Shown here piece by piece: positions 56,437 to 62,705 of a DNA stretch of 64,000 bases. The notes under the pieces were generated by a model, which was not told where the DNA came from, did no database searches, and was given only the letters and a program-made list of their open reading frames with translations. The position numbers and the translations under genes are program-made. Origin of the DNA: an uncultured Actinomycetes bacterium (GTDB lineage Bacteria > Actinomycetota > Acidimicrobiia > Acidimicrobiales > RAAP-2); NCBI GenBank assembly GCA_903875425.1, contig CAIQWC010000003.1:1-64000 (forward strand). The letters run 5' to 3'. Each line of letters starts with the position of its first letter. Positions within the stretch are counted from its first letter, which is position 1.

Positions 56437-57120
56437 GTGGCCGAAACAGCCCAAGAGCTGGCACTTCGCTTGGATCTGCACTTTACCGATCCTGGTGTGG
56501 TGGAACTTGCCCTGACGCACCCGAGTTATGCCGTAGAACACGATGTCGAATCGAATCAACGGCTTGAGTTCCTCGGTGACGCGGTCTTGGATTTGGCCGT
56601 TGCTCGGCACCTCTACGAGCGTTGTCCAAGCTTCAATGAAGGTCAGTTGTCCAAGATCCGTATCGGCGTCGTGAACGAAGCTGTCTTGGCTGCGGTTGCG
56701 AGCGAACTCAAGATAGGACCCGCGCTCAGGATGGGCCGCGGCGCAGAGACCGAGGCTCTCTTCGAGCAGCCCTCGGTCTTGGCTGATGCCTTTGAAGCCT
56801 TACTCGGCGCGCTCTACCTCGACGGGGGAGTCGAGGAGGCGAGTCGCTTCGCCATTGCGCAACTCGAACCTTGGATAGCGGCGGCGGTAGCCAATCCAGG
56901 GGGCGAAGATGCGAAGTCGAAACTCAATGAGTGGGCCCAAGCTACGACCCAACACATGCCACGCTATGTCCTGATCGCCACAGGCGCCGACCACGATCCC
57001 ACCTTTCGAGCAGAGGTATTCGTTGGCGACGCCTTGATGGGTAGTGGTCAAGGACGATCTAAGAAACTCGCAGAACAAGAGGCGGCAGCGGCCGCATGGA
57101 AGGTGGTTGAGGGTGGCTGA
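56437..57120 (+). CDS. rnc: Ribonuclease III
   Basis: A 227-residue double-strand RNA nuclease. The catalytic signature NQRLEFLGDAVLDLAV is near residue 36, ADAFEALLGALYLDGG supplies further metal ligands, and a C-terminal double-stranded RNA-binding domain has GSGQGRSKKLAEQEAAAAAW. It processes rRNA precursors. I chose GTG 56437, 13 nt after acpP, because the longer frame overlaps acpP without homology. Confidence 0.95.
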   Translation: MAETAQELALRLDLHFTDPGVVELALTHPSYAVEHDVESNQRLEFLGDAVLDLAVARHLYERCPSFNEGQLSKIRIGVVNEAVLAAVASELKIGPALRMGRGAETEALFEQPSVLADAFEALLGALYLDGGVEEASRFAIAQLEPWIAAAVANPGGEDAKSKLNEWAQATTQHMPRYVLIATGADHDPTFRAEVFVGDALMGSGQGRSKKLAEQEAAAAAWKVVEGG

Positions 57121-58018
57121 GCTTCCTGAGATCGAAGTAATAAGACAACAACTTTCTAAAGAAATCGTTGGGCGCAAGGTTAAAGCCGCCGCCATTACGA
57201 ACTCAAAGACGGTGGCGATGAACAAGACAGCCAAGGGCTTCCGGGATTTGCTCGAAGGTCGAATCGTCAAAGACGTCATGCGCCTCGGTGGCTCCTTGGT
57301 GTGCGCTTTGGATTCGGGAAATGCCTGGGTCATCACCTTGGGCGAGACCGGCCAGCTGCGGCGTACTAAGTCAGCGAAGGAAGCCAAGGAGAAGCACACC
57401 GCGGCGATCATGTCCTTCACGGTGGGTGGTGAGCTTCGCCTCGTAGATCCCAAGGGTCAGGCTCGGATGTTCGTATCGCTCCCGCCAGCGGAAGGTTCAA
57501 CCTTGACCATTTCAGGTTCTGCGGCAATCGCCGTGGGCGGCGAAGGTCGCAACACCCGCCTCCGGGTTCCAGAACTGGCCATGTTGGGCTTTGACCCCAT
57601 GGAAGATGTCATGAGCTGGGAGCGCTTCGCCATTGTGCTCAGAGCCAAATCAGTTTCGGTTCGTAGTTTCTTGGTCAACCAAGAAATGGTCTCGGGCGTC
57701 GGTGACCTCTACGCCGACGAAATTCTGTTTGGCTCAGGGCTCAATCCCTCCCGCTTGACCGATTCCCTATCGACAACGGAAGTTCGGCGCCTTTGGCGCA
57801 GTCTCGTCGAGCTGCTGGCCGAGTCCATCAAGCATGCGGGGGCCAGCATTGAGGGCGATAACACCTTTAGAGACGTCTTTGGCAAGACGGGTAACTTCGG
57901 CCAGTTCATTGAAGTCCATGGCCGAGACGGTGAATCGTGCCGGCGGTGCCGCCGCGAGATCGTCAAGATCAAGTCCGGAACCCGGACGATCTACGTGTGT
58001 GAACACTGCCAGATCTGA
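57113..58018 (+). CDS. Fpg/Nei family protein with degenerate active site
   Basis: A 301-residue protein with the Fpg (MutM) architecture: an N-terminal beta-sandwich, a helix-two-turn-helix domain (GVGDLYADEILF at 195-206) and a C-terminal zinc finger (C276, C279, C296, C299). The N-terminus reads AELPEIEV after the initiator, so alanine replaces the catalytic Pro1. The catalytic lysine position (RRAK in E. coli) reads RLGG, HLGMSG reads TLGETG, and GVGN reads GVGD. DNA binding seems retained; base excision is doubtful. The GTG start overlaps the rnc stop. It occupies the usual place of fpg between rnc and smc. Confidence 0.85.
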   Translation: MAELPEIEVIRQQLSKEIVGRKVKAAAITNSKTVAMNKTAKGFRDLLEGRIVKDVMRLGGSLVCALDSGNAWVITLGETGQLRRTKSAKEAKEKHTAAIMSFTVGGELRLVDPKGQARMFVSLPPAEGSTLTISGSAAIAVGGEGRNTRLRVPELAMLGFDPMEDVMSWERFAIVLRAKSVSVRSFLVNQEMVSGVGDLYADEILFGSGLNPSRLTDSLSTTEVRRLWRSLVELLAESIKHAGASIEGDNTFRDVFGKTGNFGQFIEVHGRDGESCRRCRREIVKIKSGTRTIYVCEHCQI

Positions 58019-58070
58019 CCGGCGAGGCTTGGCGGTAGCAGTGTTGCTCCCTCGCCCCCCGCAGGGTTGC

Positions 58071-58076
58071 TAGGTT
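58071..58076 (+). promoter_or_regulatory. -10 box of smc (leaderless spacing)
   Basis: TAGGTT ends 7 nt before the smc ATG. Confidence 0.55.
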
Positions 58077-58083
58077 CTCCCCG

Positions 58084-61000
58084 ATGTATCTCAAGCGTTT
58101 AACCATGAAGGGCTTCAAGTCCTTTGCTGACCCCACGACCCTAGAATTCGAGCCCGGCATTACGGTCGTGGTTGGCCCCAATGGGTCGGGGAAGTCAAAT
58201 GTTGTTGACGCTGTGACCTGGGTGCTTGGCGCTCAAGGCCCGCGCTCCATGAGAAGCGCGAAAATGGAAGACGTTATTTTCGCGGGGACATCGTCGCGTC
58301 CCGCGCTCGGTCGCTCCGAGGTTGCCTTAACGATCGATAACGCTGACGGTCGCCTTCCTGTGGATATGGCAGAAGTCACGATCAGTCGCACCTTGTTTCG
58401 TTCAGGGGATTCCGAGTACGCAATCAATGGTGCACCGTGTCGCTTGCTTGACATTCAAGAGATGCTGAGTGATTCAGGCGTTGGTCGCCAGCAACACATG
58501 ATTGTTGGTCAAGGCCAACTCGCCAATGTGCTTGATGCTCGCCCCGAAGAGCGCCGAGCCATTATTGAAGAAGCAGCGGGTGTTTTGAAGCACCGTCGCC
58601 GCAAAGAGCGGGCTGAACGACGATTGGCTGCAACGCAGGAGAACCTCGAACGCCTCGGTGATTTGGTGCGCGAGGTTCGTCGCCAGATGAGGCCCCTCGA
58701 ACGCCAAGCAGTCGCCGCTCGTCAATACGGAGCCCTCGCCGAAGAGCGCTATGCACTGCGGCTCCACCTTGCTGGTCGTGACTACGCACGCTACCAAGCA
58801 CGTCGCGAGGAAATCGCTACGCTGCTGCGCACCTCAGGAACTACCGAACATGAGCTTCGACAAAAGCTCGCTGAGCTCGATGCGCAGGCAACTGCGACGG
58901 CTGCGAATCTGACCCACGATCAAGCCCAAGATCTCGCGAAGTCGGTGGCTGACGTGCAAGGGCTCGTAGAACGCGCCCGTGGCCTCGACGCCGTTCTTGA
59001 GCAGCGGGCACAACGGGTGAAGCAGAGCCTTGACGCAGCGGCTGACGAAGATGTGGTGGCTTCTCTGGAAACCGATTCCGCCAAAGTCCGCTCGGAGATC
59101 ATGGTGGTGGACGAGACCGTAGAAGCGCTCAGCCCTGAGCGAGGCGCCTTGCGTGACGCAGAGGGAGCACTCGAGCGTGCTGAGAATGAGTATGAAGCCA
59201 CGTGGGGAGGCGGAGAGGACGAAGATGCCCTTGAGGCGCTACGCCGCGCGTCGGAGCGCGCCGAACTACTCGAGCGAGCAGCGAGTGTGCGTAACGAGCA
59301 ACTCACCAAGGTAACGGAACGCATTGGTCGCATTGAGGAAGTGTTGTCTCACTCAGAGAGCTTGCGCGATGAGGCCGATGCAGCGCTCACGAGTGCGACT
59401 GAGCGAGCGACATCGCTTGCTGAGACCCTTGAAGCCGCCCAGAGCATCGAGGCTGAAACAGCGCAGGTCCTCGAGGCCGCCGAGGAGACAGCATCAAAAG
59501 CGGAGGAAAAAAGTGCTCGGAGTTCGGCTCGGGCCGAGGCATTAGGTCGTGCCCTCGATGAGTTGAGCGGTCGCAGTTCACAAGCTGCCCTGAAAGAACT
59601 CAAGGGTGTCGTTGGTTCCCTCGTTGAGCTCATGGTGGTGGAGCCTGGCTGGGAACGAGCTATTGAAGCTGCGGCGGGAGCCGCCGTGGCCGCGGTGGTC
59701 GTGGATTCACGTAGCTCCGCTCGGGAAGCCTTGGAGCGTCTTCGTCGCGACGGCGCAAACGGTTTGGTGTTGGCAGCGGGAGGCCGTAGCCAAAGCATCG
59801 ATGATCTTCCGAGCGGTGTCGAGCCAGTGCGTAGCCACGTATCGCTTCGCGAAGGAGCCCCCCGTGATCTCTCGGGAGTTCTCGATCAGCTCTTTGGTCA
59901 CGCCGTTCGGGTAGAAAGTGTCGAGATCGCAATCGATTTAGCGCTCGAGCGTCCCGAACTAGTCGTGGTCACGCAAACGGGAGACCGGTTTAGCTCTTCG
60001 GGCTGGAGGATTACGGCTGGTACGGGTGTCGTTACGGCACAGGCCGTAGCCGAAGCCACGCTAGCGGCGGCGAAAGCAAGCGAAGAAGCTGAGACCGCGC
60101 AACGCGGTCGTGGTGAAGCTCGCCAAGCGCACGATGCTGCCGTGGAATCATTGGCTCAGATCCGTCGTGAGCTCGACCTCCTTAGCGCGGATGCGCTGGT
60201 AGTAGAAGCTCGAGTTGCGACTGCTGTCGCGGCGATTGAGCGAGGTGTCGCTGAACGCGCCGAGGCCGCAGCATCGCAAGCCGAACTTTCCGAAGCCCTC
60301 GAAACTGAGCGTACGGCGCTTCGAGAAGTAGCCGAGCGGCTCCCTGAGCTCGAGCAAGCAGCATCGGTGGCTCAAGAGCGGGCCCGTTGGGCCGCGGAAG
60401 CCGCCGCGACCCTAGAAGCACATCGAAACCAAGTTCGCTCCATGCGGCAAGAACTCGAGGTTCGTACCGCTGAATTAGTAGAGCGTCGCCGCACGCTTTC
60501 TCAGCGCCTCGAAGAGGTGGAGCGCCGACTAGCCGGACACGTGGAAGCACGAAACCAAGCCGAGGCGCGACGCTTGCGGCTTGAAGCGAACCTAGCCGCT
60601 ATCGAGCGCCTCGCACAGATCACGAAGCGTTGCGGGGGAGAACTCGAGAGCCTGCTGGCTGCCCGCCGCAGCGCTTATGAGGCTGAGGTGCAATCGATGC
60701 GAGCGTCCAATGAGCGCCTCGAACAGCTTCGTCGCGATCGTGCAGGTGCCGAGACGGCCCTGAACGCCCACCAGGGGCGTAGCCGCGAACTCGAAATCGA
60801 ATCAGCCGAGGTTGCGATTCGCCTGGAGGCCACCGTAGAGCTGATTCGAAAGGATCTTGACGTAGATCCACTGATGGCTCTCGAGGCACCACTGCCCGAA
60901 CTACCCGAGAACATCTCGGCCGAGGAGCGAGCCCTGAGTCTCGAGGCACAACTCGACGCACTCGGACCTATTAACCCACTTGCACTCGAAGAGCTCAGCG

Positions 61001-61572
61001 TCCTTGAGGAGCGTTCAGGCGACTTAGAAACCCAAGTTAGTGATGTTCGTGACGCACGTCGGGATCTTCAAGAGGTGGTGCGAACCCTTGATGAGGAAAT
61101 CATGAACACGTTTGCGTCGGCAGCCGCTGACGTCAATGAACACTTCAGTGCACTCGTCGCGTTGTTGTTCCCCGGGGGACAAGGACGCATGGTACTCACC
61201 GACCCCGATGACTTACTCAATACGGGTGTCGAAATTGAAGTTCGTCCTTTGGGCAAGAACGTGAGACGTGTTTCACTTCTTTCAGGCGGTGAGCGATCGA
61301 TGGCGGCGCTGGCGTTCTTGTTCGCTATATTCCGTTCACGCCCTTCCCCCTTCTATCTGATGGACGAAGTTGAAGCCGCACTTGACGATGTCAACTTGCA
61401 CCGTTTCCTCGGCCTTCTCCAGGAATTCCGGAATGAAGCTCAGCTGATCGTGGTGTCGCACCAAAAGCGCACGATGGAGACCGGTGACGCGCTCTATGGC
61501 GTCACGATGGCACCGGGCGGGTCTAGCCAAGTCGTATCGCAAAAGGTTCCTAAGGCCCAGGTCCCGGCGTGA
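58084..61572 (+). CDS. smc: Chromosome segregation protein SMC
   Basis: A 1162-residue SMC ATPase. Walker A GPNGSGKSN is at 31-39. Two long coiled coils (about 170-490 and 660-1000) flank a hinge domain (about 510-650, with LKELKGVVGSLVEL and AVVVDSRSSAREALERL). The C-terminal head has the signature SLLSGGERSMAALA and Walker B YLMDEVEAALDD. With ScpA/ScpB it organises the chromosome. It is leaderless by its -10 spacing and overlaps ftsY by 4 bp. Confidence 0.97.
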   Translation: MYLKRLTMKGFKSFADPTTLEFEPGITVVVGPNGSGKSNVVDAVTWVLGAQGPRSMRSAKMEDVIFAGTSSRPALGRSEVALTIDNADGRLPVDMAEVTISRTLFRSGDSEYAINGAPCRLLDIQEMLSDSGVGRQQHMIVGQGQLANVLDARPEERRAIIEEAAGVLKHRRRKERAERRLAATQENLERLGDLVREVRRQMRPLERQAVAARQYGALAEERYALRLHLAGRDYARYQARREEIATLLRTSGTTEHELRQKLAELDAQATATAANLTHDQAQDLAKSVADVQGLVERARGLDAVLEQRAQRVKQSLDAAADEDVVASLETDSAKVRSEIMVVDETVEALSPERGALRDAEGALERAENEYEATWGGGEDEDALEALRRASERAELLERAASVRNEQLTKVTERIGRIEEVLSHSESLRDEADAALTSATERATSLAETLEAAQSIEAETAQVLEAAEETASKAEEKSARSSARAEALGRALDELSGRSSQAALKELKGVVGSLVELMVVEPGWERAIEAAAGAAVAAVVVDSRSSAREALERLRRDGANGLVLAAGGRSQSIDDLPSGVEPVRSHVSLREGAPRDLSGVLDQLFGHAVRVESVEIAIDLALERPELVVVTQTGDRFSSSGWRITAGTGVVTAQAVAEATLAAAKASEEAETAQRGRGEARQAHDAAVESLAQIRRELDLLSADALVVEARVATAVAAIERGVAERAEAAASQAELSEALETERTALREVAERLPELEQAASVAQERARWAAEAAATLEAHRNQVRSMRQELEVRTAELVERRRTLSQRLEEVERRLAGHVEARNQAEARRLRLEANLAAIERLAQITKRCGGELESLLAARRSAYEAEVQSMRASNERLEQLRRDRAGAETALNAHQGRSRELEIESAEVAIRLEATVELIRKDLDVDPLMALEAPLPELPENISAEERALSLEAQLDALGPINPLALEELSVLEERSGDLETQVSDVRDARRDLQEVVRTLDEEIMNTFASAAADVNEHFSALVALLFPGGQGRMVLTDPDDLLNTGVEIEVRPLGKNVRRVSLLSGGERSMAALAFLFAIFRSRPSPFYLMDEVEAALDDVNLHRFLGLLQEFRNEAQLIVVSHQKRTMETGDALYGVTMAPGGSSQVVSQKVPKAQVPA

Positions 61573-62705
61573 TCATCGCCATCGTTATCGCTGCGATCGT
61601 GGTGGTCGCCGCGATAATCGGATTTGGAATTCTCAACGCACGCTCCGCGGCGAGACTCGGTAGCGCTCCGAGCCCGGCATCTCTTCATGAGCCCAAGGCA
61701 CCGGGCATCAGCGATGCGTCCCATCCTGACGATGCGCTGCGCCATCAAGGAGATGCCGAGCCTGCAGCCCTTGGGTCGGACGATGACGAGGCGTCGCCCT
61801 CGTATCGCGAACGTCTTGGACGATCACGCGGAATCTTTGACGCTATCCGCTCCAAAGTGGGCCGCACTACGATCGATCAAGGCGACTTAGACGATCTAGA
61901 AGAAGCACTCATTCGCGCGGATATTGGCGTTTCAACAACGCAGAGGATCTTGACTCACGTCGCAGCGGCGAAGAAGGCCGGTGCCGAAGAAGACCTCCTT
62001 GGTTTAGTGCGCCATGAACTCTTGCGTCTCTTGACGACGAGTGCGGATGGTACGGCGATTAATCGTGATCTCGATGATGCTTCGAGTCAAGGGCGCGTAG
62101 CAGTATGGCTGTTCGTAGGCGTCAACGGCGTCGGGAAAACCACCACGATTGGCAAGATCGCGACGGCAAGGGCGTCTGCGGGCGACAAAATTGTGCTGGC
62201 CGCGGGGGACACCTTTCGCGCGGCCGCTGGTGAGCAGCTCGAAAACTGGGGTGAGCGTTCGGGCGCGGAAGTGATTCGTGGCGCAGAGGGTGCTGATCCC
62301 TCCGCGGTGATCTTCGACGCTATTCAACGAGCAAAGGCTCGCGACGCACGACTGGTTTTGGCGGATACGGCAGGCCGCCTGCACAACAAAGTGAATTTAG
62401 TGGAGGAACTCAAGAAGATTCGCCGAGTGGCTGATCGCGAACCCGGTGAGGTGAGAGAAACCCTTTTGGTGCTCGATGCCACTACTGGTCAAAACGGTCT
62501 TGTCCAAGCACGCGAATTCCTCGAAGCCACAGGCGTAACCGGTGTCGTGCTGACCAAGTTGGACGGATCGGCCAAGGGGGGCGTCGTGGTTGCGATCGAG
62601 GCGGAACTGGGTATTCCTGTCAAATTGGTTGGTCTCGGTGAACGAGCACCGGATCTCGTGGCCTTTGATCCCGACGCCTTCGTCGATGCTCTCTTGAGTC
62701 GCTGA
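61569..62705 (+). CDS. ftsY: Signal recognition particle receptor FtsY
   Basis: A 378-residue SRP receptor. A hydrophobic N-terminal segment (residues 1-22) suggests a membrane anchor, followed by an acidic linker. The NG domain has G1 GVNGVGKTTTIGK, the insertion-box region AAGDTFRAAAGEQLENW, DTAGR and TKLDGSAKGG. It receives ribosome-SRP complexes at the membrane. The GTG start overlaps the smc stop; ffh, its partner, lies next. Confidence 0.96.
   Translation: MIIAIVIAAIVVVAAIIGFGILNARSAARLGSAPSPASLHEPKAPGISDASHPDDALRHQGDAEPAALGSDDDEASPSYRERLGRSRGIFDAIRSKVGRTTIDQGDLDDLEEALIRADIGVSTTQRILTHVAAAKKAGAEEDLLGLVRHELLRLLTTSADGTAINRDLDDASSQGRVAVWLFVGVNGVGKTTTIGKIATARASAGDKIVLAAGDTFRAAAGEQLENWGERSGAEVIRGAEGADPSAVIFDAIQRAKARDARLVLADTAGRLHNKVNLVEELKKIRRVADREPGEVRETLLVLDATTGQNGLVQAREFLEATGVTGVVLTKLDGSAKGGVVVAIEAELGIPVKLVGLGERAPDLVAFDPDAFVDALLSR

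Follow-up and report, generated by a model that had tools for sequence, protein, structure and literature searches.

Few DNA repair enzymes have been studied as thoroughly as MutM, or Fpg, and a single job is ascribed to it. In the Lactococcus enzyme, Met75, Arg109 and Phe111 are reported to evert the base and to bend the DNA into a kink of about 60 degrees (PMC5422863). For Mycobacterium tuberculosis, another report describes Fpg1 (Rv2924c), which adjoins rnc, and Fpg2 (Rv0944), a truncated Fpg homologue that lacks the N-terminal part (PMC2734929). Known zincless fingers of Fpg/Nei proteins are described as playing the role of the zinc finger (PMC3188539).

The window, a stretch of 64,000 nucleotides, covers the opening 64 kb of contig C3 in a 1.61 Mb draft genome (G000). 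It contains a mutM gene in the order rnc, mutM, smc, ftsY (56437-62705, with ftsY beginning at 61569, after smc), preceded by an acyl-carrier-protein gene and plsX (Table 1). The neighbours are what we take them to be from recognition of their translations; family libraries were scanned with the MutM protein only. The end of rnc and the GTG of mutM share the 8 nt GTGGCTGA, which include the rnc stop codon. The protein of the closest named relative, the metagenome bin "uncultured actinobacterium isolate AlinenLipids_bin-9699", is 90% identical.

Table 1. Coordinates of the mutM gene, its neighbours and residues of interest in the window.
Feature	Coordinates	Strand	Basis or remark
Degenerate MutM/Fpg gene	57113..58018	+	301 aa, GTG start, TGA stop; open ORF
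rnc (RNase III), upstream neighbour	56437..57120	+	Overlaps MutM start by 8 nt
smc, downstream neighbour	58084..61572	+	Begins 65 nt past mutM stop
Ala2 replacing nucleophile Pro2	57116..57118	+	Alignment and start-codon check
Gly60 replacing Lys60 (phosphate clamp)	57290..57292	+	Alignment
Thr75 to Glu78 replacing H74...M77 (HLGM)	57335..57346	+	Alignment
Lys114-Gly115-Gln116 replacing R112...F114 (intercalation loop)	57452..57460	+	Alignment
Asp198 replacing Asn174	57704..57706	+	Alignment
Zinc finger C276, C279, C296, C299; R280 follows the first pair	57938..58009	+	Alignment
Helix 221-240 with subtype-specific R225, R226, R229, K240	57773..57832	+	Kept 23/23; proposed second functional surface, putative function

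Three Pfam domains were found in the protein above their curated cut-offs: Fapy_DNA_glyco (77.9/25.5 bits), H2TH (68.4/34.7) and zf-FPG_IleRS (21.4/21.3). The NCBIfam equivalog cut-offs for Fpg were missed (TIGR00577, 181.4 vs 203.3; NF002211, 189.7 vs 212), as were those for Endonuclease VIII/Nei (NF007763, 56.2 vs 252; NF040775, 48.6 vs 400 bits). MutM structures are its best solved relatives, both by sequence and by fold. An AF2 model (pLDDT 90.9, pTM 0.88), built on ten sequences that include canonical relatives (a four-sequence version gave a pLDDT of 54.4), superimposed on MutM 1r2y_A with Z 33.7 and an rmsd of 2.0 over 272 aligned residues. The protein is a MutM/Fpg orthologue at the ancestral locus, a MutM by descent, and its predicted MutM fold is intact in the model. 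Because several of the defining features tested fail, it should not, judging from the alignment, be filed as a formamidopyrimidine-DNA glycosylase by function.

Reference numbering below is that of B. stearothermophilus MutM (Bst), from which window numbering runs off. The alignment placed the substitutions P2A, K60G, H74T, M77E, R112K, F114Q and N174D in the window protein, and thereby bore out the losses at the Pro, Lys, HLGM and GVGN positions on which the original prediction was built. The intercalation residues R112 and F114, missing from that first list, are gone too; the residues that insert into the DNA, M77, R112 and F114, are replaced by E78, K114 and Q116. The phosphate clamp has G60 for K60 and D198 for N174, with R264 retained as R291. 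Also retained are E3, E6 and the four zinc cysteines; the last had been noted from the start, together with an arginine before the final cysteine pair, which is present in the window genome and is His in its nearest relative. An alternative start that restores Pro2, which had been named as a way for the prediction to fail, was ruled out, since no in-frame start codon between the upstream stop and 180 nt past 57113 has proline next. The nearest relative, G014 (90% identical), carries the same substitution set and the gene is under strong purifying selection (see below), so the substitutions are not a matter of chance or sequencing error. By this alignment the nucleophile, phosphate-clamp, void-filling and DNA-kinking residues are all gone. 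Since the catalytic residues and the equivalents of M77, R112 and F114, which serve in kinking and eversion in the Lactococcus enzyme, are replaced, chemistry and base eversion should both be disabled, though Glu3 is intact. The window protein has very likely ceased to be a base-excision glycosylase/AP lyase, and the proposed absence of normal Fpg chemistry is upheld at that strength.

A match to the window protein was found in 148 of the 150 genomes in its family (G079 and G082 had none; G036, G054, G073, G076, G134 and G135 had weak matches only). Syntenic orthologues were obtained from 142 genomes, 30 as search loci and 112 by region, with rnc upstream in 140/142 and smc downstream in 134/142. 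Five of the 142 are fragments and were left out of scoring (L156, L159, L160, L161, L162); the remaining 137 comprise 121 canonical and 16 degenerate copies. The catalytic positions are nearly invariant across the canonical orthologues. Among the 16 degenerates, K60, H74 and M77 are each kept once, R112 and F114 never and N174 twice, low retention that is partly built in because the copies were labelled by visual inspection of the motif table; R264 is kept in seven, P2 in ten and E3, E6 and each zinc Cys in all 16. The 11 columns that we term catalytic/eversion were likewise partly picked after the loss had been seen. The independent facts about the degenerates are the joint loss of these residues, its recurrence and the dN/dS ratios. 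Four family loci, L095, L097, L116 and L122 (G147, G110, G140 and G115), begin MPELAEVE, with Ala at the usual Pro5, and are otherwise canonical MutMs. A distant Fpg-like protein, L006 (JAUNRX010000064.1, 1393-2205), starts MIELPE with no N-terminal Pro and has several other active-site motifs missing or altered.

We calculated NG86 dN/dS ratios for pairs of degenerate copies and obtained 0.036 (L007/L008), 0.048 (L062/L064), 0.045 (L124/L134), 0.077 (L147/L148), 0.098 (L009/L011) and 0.148 (L141/L146) in the family; L232/L233, which belong to a different family, gave 0.036. With dS mostly near or above 1 the ratios are rough, and all are far from 1. They indicate strong purifying selection on the degenerate copies with no decay, in line with the earlier proposal that selection maintains this gene beside rnc and smc (dN/dS 0.036). 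One could suppose that a decaying mutM is simply held open, so that a stop or frameshift would not disturb translation of the downstream smc, and the overlap of its start with rnc by 8 nt and the start of smc 65 nt past its stop would fit such a placeholder. Selection, however, acts on the amino acids (dN/dS 0.036-0.148, with the dS values just given), which rules out a decaying gene, and in the window's own pair MutM is more conserved than rnc (90% vs 78% identity); this explanation is already contradicted and we regard it as very improbable. The degenerate copies do change at a somewhat higher rate than the canonical ones: where SMC identity is 0.90-0.97, MutM identity has a median of 0.94 over 51 canonical pairs and lies at 0.79-0.92 in the five degenerate pairs of that range. 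Net charge (canonical median 6, degenerates 1-7, p 0.0003 by a statistic that ignores kinship) hints weakly at lower values in the degenerates. The eight degenerate g10 genomes have a median size of 1.5 Mb vs 2.1 Mb in 64 canonical ones (Mann-Whitney p 2.2e-5, for about four independent events and sizes taken without completeness correction), a faint hint of small genomes as a cause of degeneration.

Did the degenerate state arise once? On the gene's own tree, made with the active-site columns removed, the label requires six changes, four of them forced by starred branches. A tree of rnc and the first 400 SMC residues, built from all 16 degenerate rows and a selection of 37 out of the 121 canonical ones, gave nine state changes, eight of them forced (bootstrap 5-95% range 9-9). 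The two trees disagree over the window lineage: in the gene tree G000/G014 group with G037/G045 (98), and the rnc and smc tree places G000/G014 outside the group where G037/G045 sit with canonical G053, G059, G026 and G006. Behind this conflict lies transfer or, alternatively, parallel change in which side-effects were shared. The direction would be from canonical to degenerate, because the reverse needs several residues to be regained.

Degenerate copies beside rnc and smc were also found in seven of 54 genomes from other families (G153, G303, G345, G232, G311, G427 and G357, from five families), a fraction that is not a prevalence since the 54 were picked for weak MutM scores. Three zinc cysteines are lost in six of these seven, and so in 6/23 of all degenerates. 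A tree of 81 chosen rows, made by a quick method and with long branches present, assigned 23/23 degenerates to one MutM subtype (57 rows) and none to the other type (24 rows); the label changes seven times, six of them forced. A single shared origin is ruled out by all three trees. It had been suggested that the same substitutions might define one conserved clade, and the result is the opposite, with several separate origins. Conversion to the degenerate state thus appears to have happened repeatedly at the rnc-smc locus and, among the rows compared, in one MutM subtype only. As a separate observation, many genomes of genus g81 (family f29), which are 0.6-1.1 Mb in size, are without any Fpg/Nei-like match, and eight copies checked in this genus have canonical active-site motifs and lie beside rnc and smc.

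The window genome also encodes, outside the window, a further MutM whose active site is complete (L001, G000:C40:131608-132447). We call this type Fpg-B; with its own profile it scores above 430 bits, the next score being 253. Fpg-B was found in exactly 9 of the 150 family genomes, with its catalytic residues present, and in a 296-genome class sample Fpg-B-level scores were restricted to G000 and G014. Within pairs the degenerate copy is the better conserved of the two, with identities for it and Fpg-B of 90 vs 63% (G000/G014), 86 vs 68% (G037/G045) and 91 vs 63% (G029/G056). The second MutM could have taken over repair, each freed copy being recruited to a task specific to its lineage. Such a history would account for the degenerate syntenic copies in 7/9 Fpg-B genomes as against 9/128 of the other scorable cases (Fisher p 2.4e-6), and for what look like early stages in the remaining two, G078 and G081, whose syntenic MutM has M77L (G078 also R112K). 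On phylogenetically independent pairs, however, the association is not significant. Nine of the 16 degenerate family genomes (eight g10 genomes and G072) have no Fpg-B, and G427, which is 98% complete, has no other H2TH protein besides its degenerate MutM. The same basic residues, moreover, are kept in every lineage (see below), which points to a shared older role. Independent recruitment is therefore quite unlikely in our estimate, and redundancy with Fpg-B is weakly indicated as a general cause of degeneration. Among the seven degenerate genomes from other families, three have another MutM-like protein with its motifs in place (L291, L292, L293), and G303, G345 and G357 have more distant relatives only.

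Several other repair proteins were noted in these genomes. MutY was not lost alongside, as a MutY-profile match was present in 32/32 genomes tested, none above the curated cut-off. MutY/EndoIII-like matches number one in all 12 g10 genomes and two in the 20 other genomes tested, a pattern that suggests a g10 without Nth-type EndoIII. An Fpg/Nei-like protein of the window genome that starts MPEILEIE (L003, G000:C40:179571 onward) recurs in the relatives examined. Three further Fpg/Nei-like proteins, L304, L305 and L306 (G357, G232 and G311), have in common an odd C-terminal tail, GK(I/V)LADNTTSKFLK.

We took the columns with 90% or higher conservation among 34 canonical subtype members and compared them with the 23 degenerates and 24 MutMs of the other type; the retention thresholds were chosen once the data had been seen a first time. 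Basic residues common to both MutM types are mostly lost in the degenerates (window numbering, with Bst numbering in parentheses; counts kept out of 23): R32 6, R35 3, R36 12, K60 1, H75 (H74) 1, H97 6, R114 (R112) 1, K184 13, H266 4 and R291 (R264) 10. Better kept among these general residues are R11 (22), R57 (23), R214 (23), R271 (19) and H95 (15). Among the subtype-specific basic residues R225, R226, R229, K240 and R280 are kept in 23/23, R84 in 21 and R211 in 16, and R280 persists where the preceding CxxC is lost. In the other type these five occur in 2 (R225), 12 (R226), 3 (R229), 5 (K240) and 3 (R280) of the 24. Subtype-specific columns as a whole are kept no better than general ones (11/27 vs 35/76 reach at least 20/23 degenerates), so the signal comes from individual residues, most of all those of the basic helix 221-240, and not from subtype features overall. 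MutMs of the other type also adjoin rnc and smc and are without this set, so operon position alone does not require it. The retained basic residues could form structural salt bridges, since helix 221-240 also contains E223 and E233. By these counts, the catalytic groove appears to be abandoned, and the scaffold and a separate basic set to be guarded.

Glu3 and Glu6 are kept in 23/23 degenerates and Pro2 in 13/23, so residual or changed chemistry may persist. The degenerates might on this ground be altered enzymes that still act on DNA with a changed chemistry or substrate, for instance as an AP lyase, or against a lesion that requires no MutM-like eversion, with Glu3 and any N-terminal amine (Pro, Ala, Asn or Met) as nucleophile. 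K60 alone is not the whole catalytic apparatus, and E. coli Lys57 mutants retain part of their activity. Against this, the clamp residues K60 and N174, H74 and the inserted M77, R112 and F114 are lost together, and the replacements vary by lineage (D, T, N, A or K for H74; D, P, E or A for N174), which does not have the look of one new active site. We consider an altered enzyme unlikely.

The original prediction also proposed a DNA-binding protein without glycosylase activity. As worded, this does not hold up well, because K60, H74, R112, F114, N174 and R32/R35/R36, the residues by which MutM holds and kinks DNA, are those lost across the degenerates. Canonical DNA binding is probably gone, and the basic set that is retained is a different, subtype-specific one.

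With the groove abandoned and the scaffold and basic set guarded, the simplest account is a second function, older than the losses and independent of the active site. We lean slightly towards the reading that this MutM subtype has a second, glycosylase-independent function in its C-terminal domain and that catalysis was repeatedly discarded. Such a function would need neither base flipping nor chemistry, and would sit at R225, R226, R229, K240 and R280, in helix 221-240 and at the zinc-finger base. The C-terminal module would probably make a nucleic-acid or protein contact linked to the operon products, and what it binds is a guess; by operon position, RNase III or SMC, or their nucleic acids, are natural candidate partners. 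The glycosylase half would be dispensable where other repair enzymes suffice; some of the lineages do carry another MutM, complete in its active site, in the same genome. More tentatively, and with a little less than even confidence, we suggest that the whole MutM subtype beside rnc and smc in this actinobacterial class is bifunctional, and that a task which a basic C-terminal surface performs, possibly upon the DNA or RNA that SMC or RNase III acts on, outlives the enzyme and so yields repeated pseudoenzymes.

That chemistry was lost repeatedly under continued strong selection on the remainder amounts to evidence from nature for a second job. From it comes a short list of residues that could be mutated in a canonical member, and the degenerates supply natural separation-of-function alleles. 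In such genomes, an annotation of "mutM present" is by itself no assurance that 8-oxoguanine is excised by MutM. A search by title and abstract opening, with most subscription journals outside it, found no published account of an inactive MutM in such a setting.

The window protein resembles B. stearothermophilus MutM (1r2y) in its fold, three domains, zinc cysteines and Glu3, and differs from MutM/Fpg in that it is without P2, K60, H74, M77, R112, F114 and N174 and falls below the Fpg equivalog cut-offs. NEIL3-type glycosylases have Val in place of the Pro, and NEIL3 is an active enzyme; both have a non-Pro N-terminal residue, but in the window protein the remaining active site is also gone. 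The locus is like that of M. tuberculosis Fpg1 (Rv2924c) in adjoining rnc (PMC2734929). Fpg2 (Rv0944) is likewise an actinobacterial Fpg homologue without a catalytic N-terminus (PMC2734929); unlike that truncated protein, the window protein is full length, altered by residue-by-residue substitution and the syntenic orthologue itself. The degenerates that have lost three zinc cysteines recall the zincless-finger Fpg/Nei proteins (PMC3188539), but the degenerates are also without an active site, and the window copy has all four cysteines.
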